Below, one piece after another: positions 19 through 31,281 of a stretch of 35,677 nucleotides of DNA. The notes beneath the pieces were generated by a model. That model did no database searches and was not told where the DNA came from. It saw nothing but the letters and a program-made list of their open reading frames with translations. Origin of the DNA: a virus; the IMG/VR virus record IMGVR_UViG_3300010885_005784, positions 1 to 35,677 of that record; one strand, written 5' to 3'. Each line of letters begins with the position of its first letter. The first letter of the stretch is position 1. A program made the translations under genes and the position numbers.

Positions 19-222
19 TTACACGAAAAACAAATCAGGACGCAAGTCTTTTCTTGTGACCAGACCTTGCGTTGCTTTTTCAATCTTAACCGCTAACGCG
101 GCAGACGCAGTTCTGCGCTCGTGGATCAACAGCGACATCCATGTCAGGCTAATGCCCAGATACTCTGCCATCTCACCTCTTGCACCCAACGGCTCCGTCG
201 AAAAATACTCAGATAACTTCAT
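19..222 (-). CDS. YdaS/Cro-like small HTH DNA-binding protein
   Basis: A 67-residue protein that probably acts as a phage transcriptional repressor or Cro-type switch protein. A helix-turn-helix fits residues about 13-36 (ARGEMAEYLGISLTW and following). The C-terminus, IEKATQGLVTRKDLRPDLF, matches the end typical of YdaS/Cro-family proteins (GxVTRxDLRPDxF). I chose ATG 222 because AAGGAAAA lies 6-7 bases upstream; an in-frame ATG at 252 has no such site. The gene is the only minus-strand gene left of the early operon and is divergent from it, which suits a regulator acting on the gap between them. YdaS was named as an antitoxin of a toxin-antitoxin pair, but no YdaT partner is visible here, so a repressor role is the better inference. 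Confidence 0.8.
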   Translation of the reverse strand: MKLSEYFSTEPLGARGEMAEYLGISLTWMSLLIHERRTASAALAVKIEKATQGLVTRKDLRPDLFFV

Positions 223-361
223 GATTGCTTTTCCTTGGCGACGAGTATACATTAACTTTTAATTAAAAGAAACCCCACGTTTCACTCGGGAATGTATTTC
301 TTTTCTTTTTAATATCGTGTTAAGATTCGTGCACGCCGATACGGCGGTTAAGGAGAATCAA
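223..361. promoter_or_regulatory. Divergent intergenic control region with AT-rich palindrome
   Basis: The 139-base gap lies between the leftward HTH gene and the rightward early operon. A perfect 14-base palindrome, CTTTTAATTAAAAG, occupies 256-269 and is a candidate operator. A leftward -10-like TATACT reads from 249 to 244, without a convincing -35. A rightward AT-rich stretch at about 305-316 (TTTTTAATATCG) could hold a -10 for the early operon. A short inverted repeat GCCG-ATA-CGGC (335-345) sits just before the ribosome site AAGGAG (350-355) of the first early gene. Promoter positions are inference; the palindrome is seen directly. Confidence 0.4.
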
Positions 362-583
362 ATGGAAAAACACCTACCCTTCACGACCAAGTCTGGTCTT
401 CGCATTGGCTGTATGTACAGCCCACCCCCAGAGAACCACATGAGCCATGACGCTGAACTTATTCAGATGGCTTTGCTTGGCATCGAGCCTGAATTCTCAG
501 AGCGCCGTGTCTTTGGTTTTGTTGCGTACATCATCTTCCTTGGTGTGCTGTTCACGACTTTGTTTGCATTGGATCTGCGATGA
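362..583 (+). CDS. Small membrane protein, first gene of early operon
   Basis: Unrecognised 73-residue protein. The first half is polar with a Pro-rich segment (YSPPPENH, residues 19-26). Residues about 50-70 (VFGFVAYIIFLGVLFTTLFAL, in part) form one clear transmembrane helix near the C-terminus, so it is probably a single-pass inner-membrane protein with the N-terminus as its soluble domain. I use ATG 362 rather than an earlier in-frame start at 317 because AAGGAG at 350-355 lies six bases upstream. Its stop overlaps the next start as ATGA, so the two are likely translationally coupled. As an early phage membrane protein it could act in host takeover or superinfection exclusion, but nothing in the sequence proves that. 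Confidence 0.7.
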   Translation: MEKHLPFTTKSGLRIGCMYSPPPENHMSHDAELIQMALLGIEPEFSERRVFGFVAYIIFLGVLFTTLFALDLR

Positions 584-678
584 CCGACAAAGAATTCAAC
601 GAACTGCGCACAAACGTAATCCTGTTTGCCATTGGCGCGGTGATCCTAGCCCTTGATTTATTTATTTGGAGACCATGA
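580..678 (+). CDS. 32-residue single-pass membrane microprotein
   Basis: A short reading frame starting with the ATG that overlaps the preceding stop (ATGA). The product begins MTDKEFNELRTN and continues into a hydrophobic helix, VILFAIGAVILALDLFIW (residues 13-30), ending Arg-Pro. It looks like a small membrane protein, polar end first. Its stop overlaps an ATG of the following gene. Function unknown. The unbroken overlap chain on both sides and the well-formed membrane helix are the support for it being real; its size is the main doubt. Confidence 0.55.
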   Translation: MTDKEFNELRTNVILFAIGAVILALDLFIWRP

Positions 679-866
679 TGACCCACAAAACTATGGCTGA
701 ACTTGAAGCCGAAAACGTAGAGGGATTTATCAACCCCAAGCGTACGCCCCAAGAGTGGAAAGAGTTTGAAGAGCGTGCAAAGACTGTACGTGAGCATGAC
801 CGCCTGCACACAGCTTTTGAGACTGAACCTGAAGAGCCAGAAGAATCAGAAGAGGAAGAGGAATGA
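678..866 (+). CDS. Small acidic hypothetical protein
   Basis: Unrecognised 62-residue hydrophilic protein. It begins MTHKTMAELEAENVEGF and ends in a strongly acidic tail of Glu/Pro/Ser (residues about 48-62, PEEPEESEEEEE). Two ATGs lie in a row at 675 and 678; I choose 678 because GGAG at 668-671 then sits at the usual six-base distance, but 675 would overlap the previous stop. The Glu-rich end is encoded by GAAGAGGAAGAGGAA, which also serves as the ribosome site for the next gene at 863. No domain seen. Such acidic early phage proteins sometimes mimic DNA or bind host proteins, but that is speculation here. Confidence 0.65.
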   Translation: MTHKTMAELEAENVEGFINPKRTPQEWKEFEERAKTVREHDRLHTAFETEPEEPEESEEEEE

Positions 867-1072
867 ATTTACAGGACGTAATCTGGCTAGAGACCAGCAA
901 GGGGAAGATTGGCATCTTGATGGTGCTTGACTGGCACACAGAGAAGCTTCACTACTACATGGGCATTGCCAGTGGTATGAACGACAACGTGGACATCAAT
1001 CACATCTACAGCGGAGGCGTAAGCCTTCCCGACTACGTTGGTATGGCGTTCTTCTTTGGAGACTCAGAATGA
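863..1072 (+). CDS. Hypothetical protein
   Basis: Unrecognised 69-residue protein with an alternating polar/hydrophobic pattern (DVIWLETSKGKIGILMVLDW, residues 5-24), suggesting a small beta-rich fold. The rest includes LHYYMGIASGM and a Gly-rich YSGGVSLPDYVGMAFFFG end. There is no transmembrane helix long enough to be convincing and no signal peptide. The start overlaps the upstream stop (ATGA at 863-866) and follows a GAGGAAGAGGAA ribosome site. Its stop overlaps the next start. A real gene is likely from this context; its role is unknown. Confidence 0.65.
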   Translation: MNLQDVIWLETSKGKIGILMVLDWHTEKLHYYMGIASGMNDNVDINHIYSGGVSLPDYVGMAFFFGDSE

Positions 1073-1224
1073 ACGAGTACGAGCAGTGGAAAGCAGACCC
1101 TGTTGCACAGCAGGAGTACGCACAATATTTACTTGAGGAAGAACAAAAAACAGAACCAACATTAGAAGAATTTATCAACCAATTTACAAACCAATTTAAT
1201 CAAATATTTAAGGAAAAATCATGA
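1069..1224 (+). CDS. Short charged hypothetical protein
   Basis: A 51-residue frame that links the genes on either side through ATGA overlaps at both ends (1069-1072 and 1221-1224). The product starts MNEYEQWKADPVAQQEYAQY and is rich in Glu, Gln and Asn, with a C-terminal helix of repeated Asn-Gln-Phe (INQFTNQFNQIFKEK). It is probably a small helical protein. The AAGGAAAAA near the end of the gene (1210-1218) supplies the ribosome site for the SSB-like gene, so translational coupling is likely. Function unknown. Confidence 0.55.
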   Translation: MNEYEQWKADPVAQQEYAQYLLEEEQKTEPTLEEFINQFTNQFNQIFKEKS

Positions 1225-15650: not shown

Positions 15651-15914
15651 TCAATTCACCGATGGGTTAACAGCATTGACCACAGCTTGCGCCCAGTCCT
15701 GCCAGTCATCAAACACATAAGGGCCCGGAACCGCCTCGTTGTTAAACACATCGATAGCTTTCAATCCAGATGCCCATTCTCTCCAATCCGTCAAAACGTT
15801 TGGAATGGCAAGCTGTTGGGTTGCATACAGCTCACACATTAAAGATGCCCAAGACTCAAACGAATGATACCTTGGGTCATAAACTAACGCTACGTTTAGA
15901 GGATTATTATCCAC
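15651..15914 (-). CDS. Small Trp-rich conserved-looking phage protein
   Basis: An 87-residue protein, if started at GTG 15914 (then [18 protein letters not shown]). It contains several Trp residues ([37 protein letters not shown]) and three short helices. I associate such proteins with the gene after nozzle-type genes in freshwater phages. The frame extends up to ATG 15965, which would overlap the nozzle gene by 59 bases. I prefer GTG 15914 because GGGGAC lies at a good distance and the overlap is just a few bases, but this is not certain. Function unknown; it may be a small virion or assembly protein. Confidence 0.6.
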
Positions 15915-18900
15915 GAACGTCCCCAAAGTCAGCGTCCAGAAGGATCTTACCGAGCTGGTAGTCACCTCCCGCTACGTTGCTTCCAAAGCGAAGCCTCATC
16001 TCACGTCTTTGCTCACGAACGTCTACCTTGTTGGTATTAGGCTCAAACTCTCTCGGAGCGGATGTCTGGTCTTCAGATTGAGCAAATGAGCGACCCGTTA
16101 CCTCAAGGTACATGGTTCCGCTTTGGACAAAGTCAGGCTCAATACGGTCAAGGTGAATCCACTTGTTCTCACCTACAGGAGAGGGCTGTGAGGGGCCACC
16201 AGAGACCCAGCCCAAGTCATTGGTCTCAAAGTAAGACTCAATGGCCACAGCGTTGGTTCCTTGAACCGCGTCTGTTCCAACCTCGTGTTGCCACAAAGAC
16301 ACCTCGCTGTTAACCTGATCTACCGTCAACGAGAAGTTAATCCCAGCAGGGATTGCGGCAGAAAGTGTGTCACCAATTGCATAGTCTTGGCCAAAATTTT
16401 CAAGCGAGACGGAAGTTACAATGCCACCAGCCACCACGATAGTAGCTGTTGCACCAGTTCCTGTGCCACCTGTTAAGGCAATAAAACGATAGGTTCCATT
16501 TGTATAGCCAGAACCAGCGTTAGTAATAGACACTTGATTTATTGCACCCTCAAGGTTCATTTCCGTGCCAGCGGCAATAGGAAAGCGAAACACCTGAGAG
16601 AAGTAACCAGCAGAGCGACGAGCTCCCAAAGCTGTTCCAGCGTCGTACCAAGTGTTTTCCCTAGTATTGTAGATAATCGCGTCGTTGCACTCGTCTGAGT
16701 CACCACGGGGGTAGTACCACCACACCTCACCAAAACGAGGAACCTTGGTTGCCCAAACTTTCTGACGCTGAGAGTAGTTCAGGTTGTCAAAAAAGAAGTT
16801 CTGGTTCATGTTGTTGGGGACTTCTTTTACAACACCGTTGTAGAGCAAGAAACGATCAACACCGATCCAGTAGTAGATACCGTCGTACTCGATCACGCAC
16901 TGAGACGAAAGGATCGAAGACTGGCTAGAGATGATGTCATAGCGCCAGTACTGAGGAGGAGTTCCAACGCCACCGATGTAGGACATGCGAACTAGGCTAT
17001 CAATGCTCCAAAACAGCCCAGAAGGCGAGTTAGAGCCGCCCCTGACGGGTAGCCCCTTGACAATCTTGCCAGTCGCTACATTGACCTCGTTGGCATCCGC
17101 CGAGTTCCAGTCAGTAGGATCACCTGCTGAGCAGTTCTTTAAAAGCCCGTTGTTGCCGTAGACCACCACATACGGGTGCAGGGAAACAACCCCACCAGAG
17201 ACGTCAATGATGTCACCAGTAGGCAATACCCCACCTGTGTCTTTTAGAGGCTGAACAACAGTTTTTGTGATGTCGCCGTAGAGGACGGGGGTGTTGACGG
17301 TGCTGTCGATCTCGGAAAGGTTCTGCCCGGGGTGCGCCAACAGCAAGTTATTGCCGCCTTGGGTGTCGTACAGAGCATCAAACTGCCACAAGTTGTTGTT
17401 GTTGTAAATAAACTCAGGATCAACGCTTGAGACTCTCACCGTAAAGCCAGAGCTTGCGTAGACAGTCCCAACATCCACCAAGAAGCCAGAGCTCTGAGTG
17501 ACCGCTAGGACGCTGAACTGAAAGCCATTGCTTGACTTGACAAAGGTAACGGGGACAGAAAAGCCACCAGCGTTACCCAAACTGGCCACAGTAAACGCCA
17601 AACCTGCGCTTGCGTAGACGGTAGACACAGGAATAGAGAACCCTGAGCTCGTCACAACGGTAGAGATTGGAACCGAGAAGCCAGAGCTTGCGTAGATGGC
17701 TGAAATTGGAACCACAAAGCCTGCACCACTTCCGCCAATAGAGGTGGAGTTGGCTGACATGATGTTGCTGATAATGTATCCACGGCCACGGTCAGTCAAA
17801 GTAACAGAAGTCACAGCGCCAGAGGTTCCCACAACAATCGTTGCCTTAGCACCTGTGCCAGAGCCACCAGTTAGAGCTACGTTTGTGAACGTTGCCGCGC
17901 CAACTGTGGCCACATTAATCTTAAATCCTGAGCCAGTACCGCCTATGTCAAGAGGGTCAGCAGAGAGCTCGTCAGCAACCGTATAGCCTGAGCCAGTTTC
18001 GGTCAAAGTCACAGTGGTTACCGTGTTTCCAGCAACCACCACGGTAGCCGTAACGCCAGTACCCGTACCACCAGTCAAAAAGACGTTGGTGTAAGTTCCG
18101 TTGGTGTACAAAGTACCGCCGACAAGCGTGTTGAGCGTCAGAACGCCGTTAGCTGTATAAGCACCGCCGCCAGTAATGGCGCCTAAAGTCTGTATACCGC
18201 TACCGATGGATGTTGCACTGGCTGACAAAGTGTTGGCAACAACGTAATTGCTTCCCTTGGTTGTGATGGTCACCGAGGTCACAGCGTTACCAGAGACAAC
18301 AATCGTTGCTTTTGCACCCGTACCAGCTCCGCCAGTCAAAGAGACGTTGGTGAAGGTTCCGTTAGTGTAGTTAGAGCCAGCAGTTATGGCGCCTAAAGTG
18401 CCCACGCCGTTGGTGACACCACCAAGGTTAGATGCCGCGGCGCTTAGAGAATCAGCGGCGGTGTAGTTGATGCCTCGAGCAGTTAACGTCACAGACGTCA
18501 CGTCCCCACCAGCACCAACAACAATAGTTGCCTGAGCGTTAGATCCAGTACCACCAGTTAGGGGAACGCTTGTATAAGTTCCTGTGCCGTAGTTAGTACC
18601 ACCAGCCAAAGACCCAGAATTCAAAGCGTTGATGCCGTTACCCAAAAGAGCAGAGGATGCACTCATCGCATCAGCTACGGTGTAGTTAGATCCTGCGCTT
18701 GTGATGGTCACAGACGTTACGGTATTACCCGCAACCACCACAGTACCAACAGCACCAGCACCAGTACCGCCCGTTAGGGGAACCAGCGTGTAGGTTCCGT
18801 TGGTGTAATTAGATCCGCCAGTAACAGCAGAGATCGTTGCAATACCGTTTACGGAACCTGCAAACGTTGCACTGAGTGAGTCACCCACAGCGTAATTCAC

Positions 18901-20736
18901 ACCCGCGTTAACAATCTCAACGGAGTAAATACGGCTGTTTAAGATAATGATATTGGCCGTGGCGCCTGTTCCAGAACCACCAGTCAGGGGTGTATCACGG
19001 AAAACACCGATCGCTGTGATGCTGGTGCTTCCCACGGTCTGGCTGGCGCTCACGTTGTAAGTACCCACACCACCGCTACCTGTACCAAAGGACGTGATCG
19101 TGGTGTTAGCCGTTACGCCAGTTCCGTAGATGGTCTGGCCAACAACCAAAGCACCAGAAGCAACAGCGGTCACGTTCATTACCGTTCCAGATATAGACGC
19201 GGTCACAGAAGCTGTTGTTGAGTTGGTATAGTAGTTACCCGCAGTAACCCCACCCAAAGCACCAATCACACCGTTAACGCCACCAATATCTTCACTGGAG
19301 GCGGTTAAAACATCGTTGACAGAGTAGTTAGTTCCATCGTTTGTCAAAGTAACAGAACCCACAGAGCCTGTTGATACAGCAAAAACAGCGCACTGGAAAC
19401 CAGAGCTTGCCGCTACCGTAGAGGCTACGACAGCAAAGCTAGAGCCAGTTCCACCTAGGTTCGTATTGGCCGTTGTAAGGCTGTCAAGGGCCGTGTAACC
19501 GATTCCACCGTAAGTTAGCGCCACAGAGATCACAATGCCGCCAGCAACAGTTATGGTGGCTCTAGCGCCGCTTCCCGTGCCTCCTGTGAGGGTCACGTTA
19601 GGGTAGATGCCGTTGACGTATCCTGAGCCCCCTGTGATCGCTCCAAAGGCTGTTACGCCCTTACCAATGCTAGAAGCTGAGCAAGAAAGGATGTCGTTAG
19701 CGGCGTAGTTGTTGCCGCCGTACGTAATAACCACAGCAATAACGTTGCCGCCAGATGTTGTGACGGTTGCCAAGGCGCCAGTTCCAGCGCCGCCAGTCAA
19801 GGCTACGTTAGGAAAAGATCCGTTTGTGTAGTTACTTCCGCCAATGATGTTGTTGACAGCGGTGATTGAGTTTGTTGTGACGACAACAGTGCCTACGGCG
19901 CCTGAGCCTGTGCCGCCTGTAAAGTTTACACCAGTGTAGGTTCCTGCGGCGTACAAAGAGCCGCCCACGAGCTGACCGTAGGTGTCAATGATCCCAGAAA
20001 CACCACCAATAAAGGCAGAATTTGCCGTCAAAATGTCTGTGTCTTTGTAGCCAACGCCGCGGTCTTGAGCTGTAATTCCAGTCACCGCACCACCAGATAC
20101 AGTGATATTTGCGGTAGCTCCCGAGCCTACACCTACAGGCGTAGAAGTGGCATTGATCATGGGGACGTTTAAATAAGTCCCGTTGGTATACAAAGTACCA
20201 CCAGTGATGGTCGAGTAGGTGTTAACACCATTACCAATCGAAGCCGCCGCGGCAGAGAGAATATCGCCTACCAAGTAGCCGTTTCCGTCGTTGACAATTG
20301 TCACCGCTGACACAGCATTAGATGCCACAGTGATATTGGCTGTTGCACCTGCGCCGCTACCGCCAGTCAGAGGAATGCCTGTGTATGTACCGTTTGTGTA
20401 CTGAGAGCCGCCAGTGATCGTGCCCAAGGTATTCAAGGGTGAAGAGACCACAAAGTTAACAATGCCAGCGCCAATACCGCTGTTGTTGATCTCTAGGACT
20501 TGTATGCCATCGCGATAGCCGTTGAAGATCTTTGAGAAACCGTCCTCAGAGTCAACAAAGATACCGCGAGAGATACCAGCAAGGGCGTTGGTTATTTCAC
20601 GATAGCCACCAATCTTACGGGGGCGACCACGCTGAAACCTGACCCACCTTCCGTCGTTGTAGAAGTCTTTGTCGAAGACCGTGCCATCGCGCTGGATGCC
20701 CGGCTTCGTGTCAAGCGCAAAGACCTTCTTTGTCAT
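15907..20736 (-). CDS. Tail nozzle/hub-type protein with a giant repeat insert
   Basis: A 1609-residue protein. Residues 1-95 match the start of P22 gp10/SU10 nozzle-type proteins, with [20 protein letters not shown] (27-46). Residues about 1107-1395 continue that fold, a Trp/Tyr-rich beta-propeller-like region ([45 protein letters not shown]). Between them lie about ten Gly/Thr-rich repeats of roughly 70 residues (104-1005), then short SSGF repeats (1006-1105). One further 70-residue repeat lies at 1398-1465. The usual family members lack these inserts and are far shorter. The protein probably closes the tail and projects a repeat stalk. The start overlaps the upstream stop (ATGA), with AAGGGTGG upstream. 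Confidence 0.75.
17422..17721 (-). repeat. Short SSGF-type repeats, about 13 residues each
   Basis: Codes for residues about 1006-1105 of the nozzle-type protein. Seven or eight units follow the pattern S-S/A-G-F-x-V/I-P/x-V-S/x-T-V, for example [26 protein letters not shown] and [13 protein letters not shown]. The unit differs clearly from the longer repeats that precede it, and the earlier array also contains one copy near residue 443 ([15 protein letters not shown]). Confidence 0.75.
17722..20427 (-). repeat. Array of about ten 70-residue Gly/Thr-rich repeats
   Basis: Codes for residues about 104-1005 of the nozzle-type protein. The unit runs ITGGSxYTNGTYTxVxLTGG, then GxGxGAxATIxVxxGxVTSV, then TxxGxxYxVxDxLSAxxxxIG. 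Starts of units are seen near residues 106, 176, 256, 297, 366, 497, 638, 709, 782, 853 and 871. They diverge in sequence and two are cut short, so the array is old or under diversifying selection. The pattern suggests beta-sheet modules. Confidence 0.85.
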
Positions 20737-21992
20737 GAGAACGTTCCACCCTTAACGCCGCCTATAAAAGTACCAATACCAGTCGAGTCAATCGCACCAG
20801 TGACCTGAGCGCCAGTTGCATCAACGTCAACAATTTGGCTACCAAGAACAGTGATGCCAAAGCGTCCCGCGCCGGGGCGGTACAGACCCGTATTCGTCTC
20901 CGATGAGAAGTTCAGCGAAGGCACACCTGCCGTACCGTTGATCAGTGACAGAGACACACCACCAGCCAGCGCCGTGTTGGCGTTCAAGAAGTTTGTTCCA
21001 TCACAGATCAGCGTCGCCTGACCACCAGAGGGGATCGTAGCCGTCGCTCCACCAGAGACACCTGTTGTGATCGTCAACGTGAAAGCGCCAGCACTACACT
21101 GGTTACTTACAACGTAGAAGTTAACCACAGGAGGGTAGGTGACCGTGACGTTACCTGAGAGGGTTCCGATGTACGTCTGAATGGTGTTAGATGCCTCACT
21201 TGCGGTTAAGGTGTACGCGCCACTTGTGACGCTTTTTACCAACGCAGTAAATGCAAACTGGGTACTGGTTCCGTAACCGATCGTGACAAAAGCAGAACCT
21301 GTAGAGACAATAAAAGCCGACTCATTGGGAGCGAACGTCTTTGTCAGTGCCGTATCAATCAACTCAGAGCTAGTTGTTGCAACAGTAAGCGTTCCCGTAC
21401 CGTTGTTCTTCACTAACGTGAACCAGTTGTTTCCAACAGTAGCGCTATTAGGCAGAGTAACCGTAGTTGTGCCGCCTCCCCAAACATAAGTCTGGGCTCT
21501 GTCGGTTGTGGCAAATGTGTAACTCGATGTTAAAGACAGAACGGGGTGGCTTTGATTGAGGGTGGCGCCACTAGCAACCAGACCGTAACCAGCCAAAGTA
21601 GCCGCATCAGCAGAGGAGGTTCCTGTGCCAAAAGCGATAACGCCCCAAGTGCCTTGATCGGTTGCATTGGTGGTGATGTAGATGTACTTGGACTCACCAG
21701 CGGCAACAGAGACGATCGTGTTGGTTCCAGCAAAGTCTTTGACAGTAAAAGTATTTGCACCAATGTTGCGAATCAGCGCATCGTTACCAACAGAGGATTG
21801 GTTGGCAGGGGGCATGTACAGGCTCAGACCTGCTGTGCTTGCCGTGACCTGCATGATACGAGCGGCGTAGTCGTCTGTTGCACTACCGTTAATTGGCCAA
21901 GATAACTGCGTGTTGGCAGTCAGCGTGATGGCACGATAGGAGACGTCGGTCGGTTGAATGACCTGACCTGTAAATGGGCTGTTGTAACTCAT
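20733..21992 (-). CDS. Beta-rich tail fibre-like protein
   Basis: A 419-residue Ser/Thr/Gly-rich protein made of short beta strands with many TVTLPNS and GTGTLTV type segments, as in fibre shafts. The C-terminal part ([20 protein letters not shown], then [14 protein letters not shown]) is a pattern I know from phage tail fibres. It ends GGVKGGTFS. No enzyme motif was seen. The start overlaps the stop of the adaptor gene upstream (ATGA at 21989-21992), and its stop overlaps the nozzle start. Gene order (adaptor, fibre-like, nozzle) suggests it attaches to the tail near the nozzle. The specific receptor is unknown. Confidence 0.7.
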
Positions 21993-25184: not shown

Positions 25185-27899
25185 TTAAAGGTTAGCGGCA
25201 TCCAAACGTGCCTTGAGTGATTCAATGATTGCTTGTTGTTCTTGGATAGCCGCAGTCAATAATGGAATCAAAGCAGACTTATCAACCATTTGGTATTTTG
25301 GTGTGTTGTCTTCATTGACAGCATCTTTTTCACCAGTTACGGCAGAAGGCACAACGTCTTGAAGTTCGTGAGCAACAAAGAAGTCAATATCTTCTGTTGC
25401 ATCATTCATGCGGCCTGTTGATGGCTTAAGTAAAGCAACCTTTGATAAAGCGTTTTGAACCGCACCACTTACCGTTTTTGCTCTGTAGTCAGAAGTAGTG
25501 TTGTAAACAACCAAACCACCTGCTCGGTTATATGTAATTGATCCACGAGCTGTATACGCTGTTTCAGTACCAAACTCAAAGAAAAAATTGTTTCCAGCAG
25601 TTGCCCCGTTCCATATAGAAACAGGTTGTTGACCAGCAGTTGAAGAATAAAAAGTACTTGCATTTCCTGCCGCTGTAGTAGTGCCAACTAACAATCTACC
25701 GCTTGAGTCTATACGGGCAACCTCAGAATCCGTAATGTAGAAAATATGCTCTCCTCGAGTCATTTTCATCATTTTTTGTTGAGTAGTTCCACTCCCTGCA
25801 CCGCCACCTAGAAATAAAAATCCCGCATTTCCGGCAATAGATGACATGGATACAGAAATACTGCTGAATTGTGTTGTTGCACCCGTGTAAGTAGCGTTAA
25901 TGAATGGGGTGTATGTTCCATCAACACCACTTGTGTTAAATGCACCAGCACCAGTAACACATAATTTGGATGAAGCATATTGGCTTGTAGTACCCACTAG
26001 CAAATTACCAGAGCTATCAAAGATACCCCGTGGATTCCCATCCCCATCAGACAGCACGATGTTGTTGCTTGCTGTGCGAATGTCTAGGCCACCTTGGTTG
26101 CCTGTGTAATTTCCAAGTATTACATTCTTAGATCCTGTGGTCATGTCATAACCAGAACCAGCTCCAGTTGAAGAAGAAACAGAACCTAAAAATACATTGT
26201 ATGAACCAGTTGTAACGCTATATCCAGCACCAAGACCAATAAATGTATTTTTCTGACCCGTTGTATTGCTATACCCAGCCTGATAACCAACAGCAGTGTT
26301 GTTAGATGCTGTGGTGTTGGAGTTAAGCGACAAACTTCCCACGGCGGTGTTATACGATCCAGAAGAATTTACAACTGTATTGGGGCCAGATTGATAACCA
26401 AGATAGGTGTTATCTGTTCCAGTTAACTGCCCATAACCAGCTTGCACTCCTAATGTGGTTAGCTTTGTACTTGTTGTATTGCTGTAAGCCGCCTGATAAC
26501 CTACAGCAGTGTTGTTGGATGCCGTGGTGTTTACGGCAAGTGATGCATAACCAACGGAGGTGTTGTTTGAACCTGTTGTGTTTGTGCTCAACGCCCCAGA
26601 ACCAAAAGCATTGTTGTAATTGCCTGTGGTGTTTGCTTTTAGAGCCGCATCAACGTTACCAGTATGAAATCCACCAAAGGCACTATTGGCAACGCCCGTA
26701 GTATTTGCGTAAAGGGCTTGGTGTCCAAATGCATTGTTTGCTGTAGCCGTAGTATTTGAGTAAGCCGCTTGATAACCTACAGCAGTATTGTTAGATGCTG
26801 TGGTGTTGGAGAAAAGGGCGCTGTCACCCATTGCGGTGTTAGAAGCGCCAGTTGTGTTTCCACCAAGTGAGTGTTTACCAACAGCAGTATTGTTTGCACC
26901 AGTTGTATTTGCATCTAAAGAGCGAGAGCCAATTGCAGTTATGTTTACACCAGTAGTATTAGATAAACCTGCTTGAAAGCCTGCAAATAAATTTTCATCC
27001 CCCGTAGTATTGCTATACCCCGCCTGATAACCTACGGCGGTGTTGTTAGATGCTGTGGTGTTAAAGCGAAGTGCCTGTTGACCAACGGCTACGTTATAGC
27101 TTCCTGTCGTATTTGCATACAAAGCCGCTGAACCAATGCCTGTAACACCATCGCCAGTTGTATTTCCCAAACCAGCTTGCGTTCCAATAAATGTTGCGTT
27201 TGTTCCAGTAGTCAGTGCATAACCAGCTTGATAACCAACAAGCGTTTGATTTTGACTTGTAGTATTGCTGTACCCTGCCTGATAGCCAACGGCAGTATTG
27301 TTAGATGCTGTGGTGTTTGACTGAAGTGCGTTTGCACCTAAAGCGGTATTATTTGAGCCAGTTGTGTTTCGTCCCAATGCACCAAAATCAACGCCATTTT
27401 GACCAGCGCCTATGGCAGTGTTGTAACCACCTGTTGTATTAAAATATAAAGAATATCCACCAACAGCGGTATTAGAAACGCCAGATGTGTTTGCATTTCC
27501 AGCGCCATATCCAACACCCGTTACCAATACGCCTGTATTAGCACCAGCCAAAGCAGTAGCACCCACCGCAGTATTGGTAGACACACCACCAGTACCACGG
27601 CCAATCGTCAAGCCATACAGCAGACCGTTGGTTGCAGAACTATCTTTGATCAGCTTACCAGTCGTACCGTCAAACAGAACAACACCGTTAGCTGTTGCGG
27701 AGGCTGGGCCAACCACATCACCAGCGGCGCCTGCGGCTGAAGCCAGCAACGTCACAGCACCAGAACTGTTCTCGTAATAAAGTTTGCCATCAACAGTATT
27801 GATTGCCAACTCTCCAGCCACAAGGTTTGCCGCAAGAGGTACAGCCGCCGCTGTGGTGCTGTAGTAAAGCTGAATTGGTGTAAAGCCTGCTTGTGCCAT
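25185..27899 (-). CDS. Trimeric tail fibre with YadA-like repeats and S74 chaperone
   Basis: A 904-residue tail fibre. The N-terminus (GFTPIQLYYSTT, GELAINTVDGKLYYE) is a common phage fibre base. Residues about 105-615 are left-handed-helix repeats like those of YadA heads (NTAVGYQAGYSNTTG, AFGSGALSTNTTG), each about 14 residues. A linker with two IDSSGRLLVGTT-like segments follows. Residues about 801-904 are an S74 intramolecular chaperone: TSDYRAK places Ser803 and Lys808 where the self-cleavage dyad of endosialidase-type chaperones lies, and the end ALIPLLTAAIQEQQAIIESL is the family's helical tail. The chaperone would be cut off after trimer folding. The receptor-binding part probably lies in 620-800. 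Confidence 0.9.
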   Translation of the reverse strand: MAQAGFTPIQLYYSTTAAAVPLAANLVAGELAINTVDGKLYYENSSGAVTLLASAAGAAGDVVGPASATANGVVLFDGTTGKLIKDSSATNGLLYGLTIGRGTGGVSTNTAVGATALAGANTGVLVTGVGYGAGNANTSGVSNTAVGGYSLYFNTTGGYNTAIGAGQNGVDFGALGRNTTGSNNTALGANALQSNTTASNNTAVGYQAGYSNTTSQNQTLVGYQAGYALTTGTNATFIGTQAGLGNTTGDGVTGIGSAALYANTTGSYNVAVGQQALRFNTTASNNTAVGYQAGYSNTTGDENLFAGFQAGLSNTTGVNITAIGSRSLDANTTGANNTAVGKHSLGGNTTGASNTAMGDSALFSNTTASNNTAVGYQAAYSNTTATANNAFGHQALYANTTGVANSAFGGFHTGNVDAALKANTTGNYNNAFGSGALSTNTTGSNNTSVGYASLAVNTTASNNTAVGYQAAYSNTTSTKLTTLGVQAGYGQLTGTDNTYLGYQSGPNTVVNSSGSYNTAVGSLSLNSNTTASNNTAVGYQAGYSNTTGQKNTFIGLGAGYSVTTGSYNVFLGSVSSSTGAGSGYDMTTGSKNVILGNYTGNQGGLDIRTASNNIVLSDGDGNPRGIFDSSGNLLVGTTSQYASSKLCVTGAGAFNTSGVDGTYTPFINATYTGATTQFSSISVSMSSIAGNAGFLFLGGGAGSGTTQQKMMKMTRGEHIFYITDSEVARIDSSGRLLVGTTTAAGNASTFYSSTAGQQPVSIWNGATAGNNFFFEFGTETAYTARGSITYNRAGGLVVYNTTSDYRAKTVSGAVQNALSKVALLKPSTGRMNDATEDIDFFVAHELQDVVPSAVTGEKDAVNEDNTPKYQMVDKSALIPLLTAAIQEQQAIIESLKARLDAANL
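26055..27587 (-). repeat. YadA-like repeats with five near-identical DNA units
   Basis: Codes for residues about 105-615 of the S74 fibre, some 35 short repeats of type NTxxGxxAxxxNTTGxxN. Within it the block for TTASNNTAVGYQAGYSNTT (or AAYSNTT) occurs five times, starting near 26280, 26492, 26770, 27023 and 27278 on the plus strand. These blocks of about 40 bases are almost identical at the DNA level, including synonymous positions, and lie 210-280 bases apart. Confidence 0.9.
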
Positions 27900-30347: not shown

Positions 30348-30695
30348 TTATGGGCTCAGTTGGTCAAGGTTGCCGTTATTCTCAGGATCCTGAGTATTCC
30401 CCTCTGTCGAGATGATAAAGCTACCACCAGTAATACCGTTTTGGGTCGTGACAATGTTATTGTCATTGGCGGCGACGCTCACGTCAGGACGTGGGAATCT
30501 GATCGTTATTCTCTCAGTTTTACGGGCAGGCAATCGGTACGGGTCTTTTTCATCATTGCATCCCCTGTTGCACACCATAAGCCCGGGAAAATTATTATCG
30601 GGACTAAGCTCGACGTGCGCCCTTTTCATCTTACACCTATCGCACACCGCGATAGAAAGGACAGCATTTCCACGTGTATCAAGAAAAATTGGCAC
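30348..30695 (-). CDS. Small zinc-ribbon protein
   Basis: A 115-residue protein with four cysteines in two pairs, Cys18/Cys21 (CDRC) and Cys42/Cys46 (CNRGC), a likely zinc knuckle. After it, [20 protein letters not shown] is a block that I recognise from phage proteins between structural genes. The C-terminal 45 residues are Asn/Gly-rich and probably loose. The start is GTG 30695 with AGAGGAAG six bases upstream; both lie inside the last codons of the homing endonuclease gene. Function unknown; zinc-binding and late position suggest a virion or assembly role. Confidence 0.75.
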
Positions 30696-31281
30696 GATAA
30701 GCTTCCTCTAACTTGAGCCAGTTGCCAGAATTAACCCAACGTCGAACCGTTGTTCTGTAATTATCGGTAGCTTTGGCAAATTCTGCAATGCTCTGAAATT
30801 CAGTTCCACACACAGCAATCGGGCGTGCAATTTCTTTTTTGGCATCAGCCATTCGTTGTTTTGTTTGCTCTGTTCTTTTTTTGCCAGTAGCGGAAGACCT
30901 GCGCTTCTCAATAAACACCGGGTCAATTGCCATAGATTTGCAACGATCAACAGACCCATTTGCCAATGACTTATCGCGCAATACTGTTTTGGTTTGATCG
31001 TTATGCTTTAAACCAGAAACGCCATCACCACCATCGGTAATGTTCGCGAGACTTGTTCCCATTTGACGAAATGTGTCAATCAAAAAGATTTCGTGATCAA
31101 GAGCTTCGCGTTCTGTGGGCCAAGAAGCCAATATCTCTACCGTTGGAGAGCCATGTTTTTTGACTATGTTTTTCCAAAAGTTTGTTCGATCATTGAAATT
31201 AAACGCACGCTTACGTGTTCCTTTACCAATATAAAAGATTGAGCCATCAGGCTTGTAGTGAGCGTATGTTAAGAACTGCAT
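30679..31281 (-). CDS. GIY-YIG homing endonuclease
   Basis: A 200-residue selfish DNA endonuclease. The GIY-YIG core spans residues 5-85: TYAHYKPDGSIFYIGKGTRK (5-24), catalytic-type Arg and Lys in GKGTRKRA, the metal-binding Glu64 in LDHEIFLI, and the LANITDGGDG end with Asn80. The second half is the DNA-binding part: a NUMOD3-like basic segment (RTEQTKQRMADAKK, 136-149) and a NUMOD1-like helix-turn-helix (FQSIAEFAKATDNYRTTVRR, 162-181). It sits between the adaptor-like gene and the zinc-ribbon gene and is free-standing, not in an intron. No intron or intein marks are seen nearby. It probably spreads by cutting phages that lack it. Confidence 0.92.
   Translation of the reverse strand: MQFLTYAHYKPDGSIFYIGKGTRKRAFNFNDRTNFWKNIVKKHGSPTVEILASWPTEREALDHEIFLIDTFRQMGTSLANITDGGDGVSGLKHNDQTKTVLRDKSLANGSVDRCKSMAIDPVFIEKRRSSATGKKRTEQTKQRMADAKKEIARPIAVCGTEFQSIAEFAKATDNYRTTVRRWVNSGNWLKLEEAYRANFS
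30702..30709 (-). promoter_or_regulatory. Ribosome site of zinc-ribbon gene inside endonuclease codons
   Basis: AGAGGAAG on the minus strand, six bases before GTG 30695, decides the start of the zinc-ribbon protein. It is also the Leu-Glu-Glu-Ala coding sequence near the endonuclease C-terminus. Confidence 0.75.

Follow-up and report, generated by a model that had tools for sequence, protein, structure and literature searches.

The IMG/VR virus record IMGVR_UViG_3300010885_005784, analyzed over positions 1 to 35,677 (a stretch of 35,677 nucleotides, here called the window), encodes on its minus strand a tail nozzle protein of 1609 amino acids, in a frame of 1609 codons without a stop (15907 to 20736). 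Very probably, this podovirus nozzle carries a nested arm of eleven β modules of about 80 residues each, inserted in the propeller loop that is also used by the nozzles of SU10 and crAss001. By the same reading, and with the same high probability, the seven short SSGF repeats that end the inserted array are the last strands of modules M1, M2, M3, M6, M7, M8, and M9, postponed to the end of the array. Arms inserted in a nozzle are already known, and the novelty here lies in the module family and the depth of its nesting. All features are listed in Table 1.

The protein is a podovirus tail nozzle of the Pa223, VP1, SU10, T7, and P22 type. In sequence searches, residues 1107 to 1609 match the nozzle of phage Pa223 (9nwi_Y; E value, 1.4e-11) and the VP1 nozzle gp16 (E value, about 1e-9). 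For homologue L025, with a single module at each insertion site, the structural model shows the platform and propeller fold of a podovirus nozzle over the whole chain and aligns from the first to the last residue with the nozzles of SU10, VP1, Pa223, crAss001, and P22 (Z score, 15.0 over 394 residues with the SU10 nozzle and 11.4 with the crAss001 muzzle). This model is of moderate quality (predicted local distance difference test [pLDDT] score, 68), with a poor middle and low confidence at residues 354 to 473. Residues 30 to 45 of the window's protein read [16 protein letters not shown]; the insert is preceded by nozzle residue 97 and followed by residue 1107, with LWQFD at 1116. Because array-less homologues join residue 97 to residue 1107 and the L025 model aligns end to end, the two flanks form one nozzle. 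An earlier note, made from the sequence alone, had supposed as much; the flanks do not fail as one domain, and the homologues show neither the array as a separate gene nor the 5' part as unrelated to nozzles. The nozzle protein gave no Pfam match to an E value of 0.1, and the repeat modules rather than the nozzle part account for most of its PHROG baseplate and tail fiber matches.

Residues 1 to 97 and 1107 to 1609 share a single frame in 80 related loci from the viral collection, and in L017, L022, L023, and many others the first part is fused straight to the second. Insertions in this family fall at three sites, 97, 155, and 372, when the 510-amino-acid nozzle of Caulobacter phage GB2A, which is free of inserts, is taken as the reference. 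Site 97 is empty in 46 of the sequences compared, holds one module of 84 to 88 residues in six, and holds a long array in 18; the sample comprises the best-scoring matches, so that these counts are not frequencies in nature. Across relatives, 0, about 63, about 151, or 327 residues are found at site 155, which is empty in the window, and 0, about 70, or about 155 residues at site 372, where the window carries one module. Comparison of nozzle length among relatives, as proposed in the earlier note, thus separates empty, single-module, and array states at site 97. The repeat array that the note had seen within a nozzle is borne out by the open frame, the profile-detected modules, and the order kept in homologues, but its size and limits had been underestimated: instead of about ten repeats in some 900 residues (17422 to 20427), there are eleven modules and one module of another type in 1009 residues (17419 to 20445).

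The modules were found at 25 to 94 bits with a profile built from the single modules of relatives and the window's own copy at residues 1401 to 1475. Eleven modules of one family (M1 to M11) lie in the array, together with one different, X-type module at residues 507 to 575. A complete module can be divided into three parts, with [29 protein letters not shown] as the first half, VTSVTITxxGxxYxVGDxLSA as the second, and GSGFxVPVxTV as the last strand. M1, M2, M4, M7, M8, and M9 end at profile positions 68 to 70, and M6 ends at position 64, all without a last strand, which M5, M10, and M11 possess. M4 and M5 divide M3 into two halves, the X-type module interrupts M6, and the complete M11 interrupts M10 between profile positions 14 and 15.

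Beyond residue 1014, where M10 closes, a 13-residue unit occurs seven times in succession. The earlier note had taken these SSGF repeats for a second repeat type; their number and sequence point instead to the last strands that the long modules lack. A broader profile that included homologous arrays picks up all seven repeats; first halves, second halves, and last strands then number 11/11/11 in the window, as they do in several relatives, and L008 to L011 and L087, all of which lack M11, give 10/10/10. The order of the units parses as nesting without remainder: M1, M2, M3, and M4 open, M5 opens and closes, M4 closes, and M3 continues; M6 to M10 then open, M11 opens and closes, M10 closes, and seven closings follow for M9, M8, M7, M6, M3, M2, and M1, the deepest unit, M11, lying at level nine. 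The identity, balance, and order of the modules can thus be read directly. A second strand profile, built from the last strands of other phages' modules only, was applied to the protein, and 9 of its 10 best matches are closing strands, including those of M10 and M11 and five SSGF repeats above 10 bits; the expected chance numbers are 0.003 to 0.04 for five of the seven repeats and 0.5 for one. In relatives with a single module at site 97, the closing strand GSGFSVPVATV adjoins the resumed nozzle, in the position of the window's seventh SSGF repeat. M11 and its last strand are missing together in L007 to L011 and L087, in which M10 is unbroken.

Pairing of bodies with distant strands was also read from an AlphaFold2 model of residues 84 to 1112, made with 25 homologues (model number plus 83 gives the protein number), with a mean pLDDT of 82.2 and all seven SSGF repeats modeled as strands. 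Rows of an alignment with small PDB domains (VIA-align) were used for their spans only, by first and last residues. One row of 80 aligned residues (6mij) spans 774 to 1028, corresponding to M9 and repeat 1; five rows of 62 to 79 residues span 627-633 to 1052-1055, corresponding to M7 and repeat 3; and one row of 62 residues (2vrs_C) spans 114 to 1104, corresponding to M1 and repeat 7. For M1, M7, and M9, therefore, body and distant strand are predicted to share one compact domain, as nesting predicts, and the remaining pairings would be those given by the nesting order. Completion in nested order, of the kind seen in the SI3 domain of cyanobacterial RNA polymerase, was thus found in the counts and order, in the empty site of M11, and in three model pairings. 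The AlphaFold prediction of SI3, which is similarly threaded, matched its crystal structure to 1.08 Å (PMC10802570).

It was reported previously that the SU10 nozzle contains four immunoglobulin (Ig)-like domains between propeller blades 2 and 3, which are folded in the virion before infection and straighten on host contact, the resulting nozzle lengthening the tail by 277 Å (PMC9509320). In the crAss001 muzzle, the domain IG1 lies between blades 2 and 3, and the second Ig domain hosts a large inserted domain (PMC10172136). The hhalign comparison of the window's nozzle with SU10 gp17 alone was short and weak; a multiple alignment that included Salmonella phage 7-11 and Pa223, read partly by eye, does place the insert, with the SU10 Ig-like domains beginning after the strand that ends near residue 107 and stopping just before the W-strand, the site of the array. 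Because the SU10 domains align to the position of the array, an arm at this point of the nozzle is already known. Hence nozzles are not always uninterrupted, and an arm-bearing nozzle is not in itself a novel design; the earlier note had taken an uninterrupted course as normal and such a stalk as a novel device. The periplasm-spanning role that it had suggested finds no support in this analysis.

Several observations weigh against the nested arm as described. The alignment with SU10 is at low identity. The aligned rows have Z scores of 2.0 to 3.2, give first and last residues only, and come from one model, and the folds named in them carry no meaning; at 0.40, the predicted template modeling score of that model is too low to fix the arrangement of the modules or the shape of the arm. 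The profile of other phages' closing strands does not recognize the repeat at 1069 to 1079 and recognizes the M4 strand at 444 to 454 and the repeat at 1043 to 1053 weakly, and a simple scan misses or adds units in diverged homologues. When the codivergence of bodies and strands was compared over 18 homologues, 7.7% of orders scored equally well (15% after correction).

Within the nozzle family, the comparison of loci indicates that whole modules have been inserted into modules, with the empty sites visible. At site 372, L062 and L071 hold an X-type module (GTGIPxxTT) alone, and L053, L067, L068, L072, L078, and L080 hold an X-type module with a complete Y-type module inside, a clear pair of empty and filled states. 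Site 155 likewise contains X-type modules alone and with another module inside. In L021, L026, L030 to L035, L077, and L068, the X-type modules at this site enclose others, up to 327 residues in L068; the inner modules are of a GQCSCTSTTGL type, with a Y-type module in L077. The arrays of L013, L014, L016, and L019 contain an extra module of ~85 residues within the X-type module of M6, making one more level. The X-type module of L025 (residues 245 to 314) matches chain 1 of 8eci, from Arthrobacter phage Bridgette (Z score, 9.5; 1.6 Å over 68 residues), and by its modeled fold this module is common to another phage structural protein. In a tree of the nozzle core, array-bearing nozzles form no single supported clade (support, 0.41), and the array may have arisen by one gain with losses or by exchange, between which this tree does not decide.

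In the mechanism that we propose, new modules would be added by insertion into loops of modules already present, ahead of the last strand in most cases; the putative exceptions are one insertion in a hairpin (M4 and M5 in M3) and one in the YTNG^TY loop (M11 in M10). Most modules would start on an outward path and gain their last strand on the return, the seven SSGF repeats being the return path. Because the modules are nested and not in plain series, as the earlier note had read them, both ends of the arm would lie at its base, on the nozzle, with M10 and M11 at the far end. The arm would be a stalk, nine levels deep, in which two chain segments link most neighbors, and six such arms would lie around the tail tip or lengthen it and would function when the host is contacted, as do the SU10 nozzle domains; stalk shape, hexamer, and role are inferred. 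The arm might be roughly 20 to 25 nm long, judging from SI3, a long thin arm of 150 Å for seven motifs (PMC10802570). Its position and the behavior of SU10 suggest a tail-tip arm used at host contact, either extended or folded. A wider reading, in which recursive self-insertion gives phage tail proteins long, doubly linked arms, this nozzle being the deepest known case and its arm a sixfold, extendable tail stalk analogous to that of SU10 and made of unrelated modules, is in our view slightly more doubtful than probable.

The same nested architecture could serve another role, with the arm folded back along the nozzle exterior as a receptor-binding or fiber-docking decoration rather than extending the tail. 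The SU10 domains are folded before infection, as noted above, and the small β modules that relatives carry at two other sites of the nozzle hint at a general decoration of its surface; nothing direct opposes this role, although a stiff arm that projects would be in keeping with the predicted size and doubled linkage. We regard it as a serious, if rather doubtful, possibility. An origin of the array by nearly neutral expansion, through repeated insertion and without a dedicated role, would fit with the fact that most close relatives live without it and that modules come and go at several sites. It is nevertheless unlikely, since the unit order, and with it the number, is kept in 17 further homologues down to the lowest identity (57 to 89%), and since differences fall mostly at third codon positions in the array (482 of 634 in comparison with L004) as they do in the nozzle part (243 of 316). 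Because the order is kept over such divergence and the changes are mostly at third positions, the array is under selection as a protein. Tandem Repeats Finder detected no array in the DNA of the insert region, for which reason the repeats are judged to be old and diverged.

Taken at face value, the sequence suggests eleven independent domains in ordinary tandem, and the SSGF repeats would be an unrelated short β-solenoid or linker closing the loop; modules of this family do occur singly and closed, as in gp7 of P-HM1. This is decidedly improbable: seven modules would lack a last strand and be equaled in number by the repeats only by accident, the repeats match the last strands of other phages' modules, and in the model M1, M7, and M9 are each joined by a repeat from far along the chain. 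A fusion of two genes in one frame, or an artifact of assembly, can be dismissed as its origin, for although the array is in no record of the cultured-phage collection (tblastn of the closing strands and one module gave no match, though a low-complexity filter may hide some), the unbroken frame recurs in many independent contigs, which already refutes it. By the unit order kept in homologues and the concentration of differences at third codon positions, chance and artifact are excluded as the source of the array.

The nested arm resembles several known systems in part. SU10 gp17 (Kuravirus) is likewise a podovirus nozzle with a chain of β domains at the same propeller position and an SU10-family adaptor nearby; in contrast to the eleven modules of another family found here, it has four Ig-like domains with no nesting described (PMC9509320), and straightening on contact was shown there, while the present array is known from sequence and model. 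The crAss001 gp44 protein also has a propeller, in which IG1 separates blades 2 and 3 and a further Ig domain itself carries an insertion, but its insert within an insert makes a large crass fold rather than nine levels built from a single module family. SI3, although it belongs to a different protein, organism, and fold family, likewise has one domain family threaded into itself, with several domains drawing elements from distant sequence; its nesting has six levels, and in a survey of 2.7 million domains these six levels of the cyanobacterial RNA polymerase were named as the example of complex nesting (PMC13114784), in comparison with nine levels of one family in this phage nozzle. Modules of the same family occur singly in the gp7 baseplate proteins of cyanomyoviruses (P-HM1, residues 1402 to 1481, 67 bits by profile), where they are scattered and no run of closing strands was found. 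The GB2A nozzle has a homologous scaffold (45% identity) without any of the three module insertions. No description of nested domain insertion in phages was found in the open-licence literature, which was not a full literature search.

As to an Ig-like fold, the array module gave no clear fold match and no Pfam match to an E value of 0.1, and no chain of the sandwich-barrel hybrid fold was among its structural matches, which were weak. A Foldseek search of the array model against the PDB gave no match better than an E value of 1, and the BFVD matches of the array, most of them structural proteins of cyanophages, superpose poorly; in a follow-up of the P-SSM3 match, the baseplate region 85000 to 134000 of NC_021559 was scanned with the module profile, and no module was found.

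If the nested arm is correct, a viral protein can gain a long loop arm with its own fold intact, as modules enter existing modules and the chain ends stay at the base, and there is a second way to furnish the propeller position at which SU10 and crAss001 bear their Ig-like domains. The rule, readable from sequence, that each postponed strand belongs to the most recently opened module would allow hidden nested arrays to be discovered in other tail proteins of phages whose present annotation is of plain repeats. The nested arm also poses a folding question, as the first module would be completed about 1000 residues after its start.

Table 1. Features of the nozzle gene, its inserted array, and neighboring genes in the window (residues refer to the nozzle protein)
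Feature	Positions	Strand	Basis
Nozzle protein gene, 1609 aa	15907..20736	-	Open frame; nozzle match by sequence and homologue fold
Nozzle scaffold, N-terminal part, residues 1-97	20446..20736	-	Continues immediately with residue 1107 in homologues lacking the array (L017, L022, L023 among them)
Inserted array, residues 98-1106 (1009 residues)	17419..20445	-	0, ~84-88, or 916-1102 aa here in relatives
M1 body, 102-170, open; last strand 1095-1105	20227..20433	-	Profile, strand scan; AlphaFold2 row 2vrs_C spans 114..1104
M2 body, 173-246, open; last strand assigned 1082-1092	19999..20220	-	Profile, strand scan; paired by nesting order
M3 first half, 252-290	19867..19983	-	Profile positions 2-44 only
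M4 body, 294-360, nested in M3	19657..19857	-	Profile
M5, 364-441, own last strand, nested in M4	19414..19647	-	Profile positions 3-78
M4 last strand, 444-454	19375..19407	-	Strand scan; weak with independent profile
M3 second half, 455-490; last strand assigned 1069-1079	19267..19374	-	Profile positions 31-68
M6 first strands, 494-506	19219..19257	-	Read by eye; profile gives no score to the piece alone
X-type module, 507-575 (504-578, about 19003..19227, in the fold comparison), nested in M6	19012..19218	-	8eci_1 fold match, Z 7.1; type alone at site 155 of relatives
M6 remainder, 576-630, open; last strand assigned 1056-1066	18847..19011	-	Profile positions 14-64
M7 body, 634-702, open; last strand 1043-1053	18631..18837	-	Profile, strand scan; five AlphaFold2 rows
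M8 body, 706-776, open; last strand assigned 1030-1040	18409..18621	-	Profile, strand scan
M9 body, 780-848, open; last strand 1017-1027	18193..18399	-	Profile, strand scan; AlphaFold2 row 6mij 774..1028
M10 first strands, 849-864	18145..18192	-	Profile positions 1-14, weak alone; M10 whole in M11-less relatives
M11 complete, 866-946, nested in M10	17899..18141	-	Profile positions 2-80; lost with strand in L007-L011, L087
M10 remainder with last strand, 947-1014	17695..17898	-	Profile positions 15-80
Seven putative postponed last strands (SSGF repeats), 1017-1105, period 13	17422..17688	-	Repeat listing, strand scans, AlphaFold2 strands
Nozzle scaffold, C-terminal part, residues 1107-1609	15910..17418	-	Sequence match to nozzles, homologue comparison
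Single closed module, second nozzle site, residues 1401-1475	16312..16536	-	Profile, 91 bits; not in GB2A, MW202545
419-aa tail protein between adaptor and nozzle	20733..21992	-	Weak PHROG tail fiber match
Adaptor protein, SU10_adaptor PF24175	21989..22624	-	Pfam match, 83.5 bits

The SU10-family adaptor gene sits two genes upstream of the nozzle gene. Among relatives, L082 (MW202545) was deposited as Siphoviridae yet has a podovirus-type nozzle, with one module each at sites 97 and 155. The sole nozzle match in bacterial genomes is L169, on contig CAMDXR010000008.1 of a Limnohabitans metagenome-assembled genome, which is too little to name a host; since binning may place a phage contig with a bacterium, it is a weak hint of Limnohabitans. 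A homing endonuclease match (phrog_314; E value, 3e-16) lies among the virion genes at 30679 to 31281, on the minus strand. On the same strand, at 25185 to 27899, a 904-amino-acid protein matches virion structural and tail spike families phrog_23837, phrog_6002, and phrog_4636, with five matched stretches per PHROG family, and is thus also repetitive.

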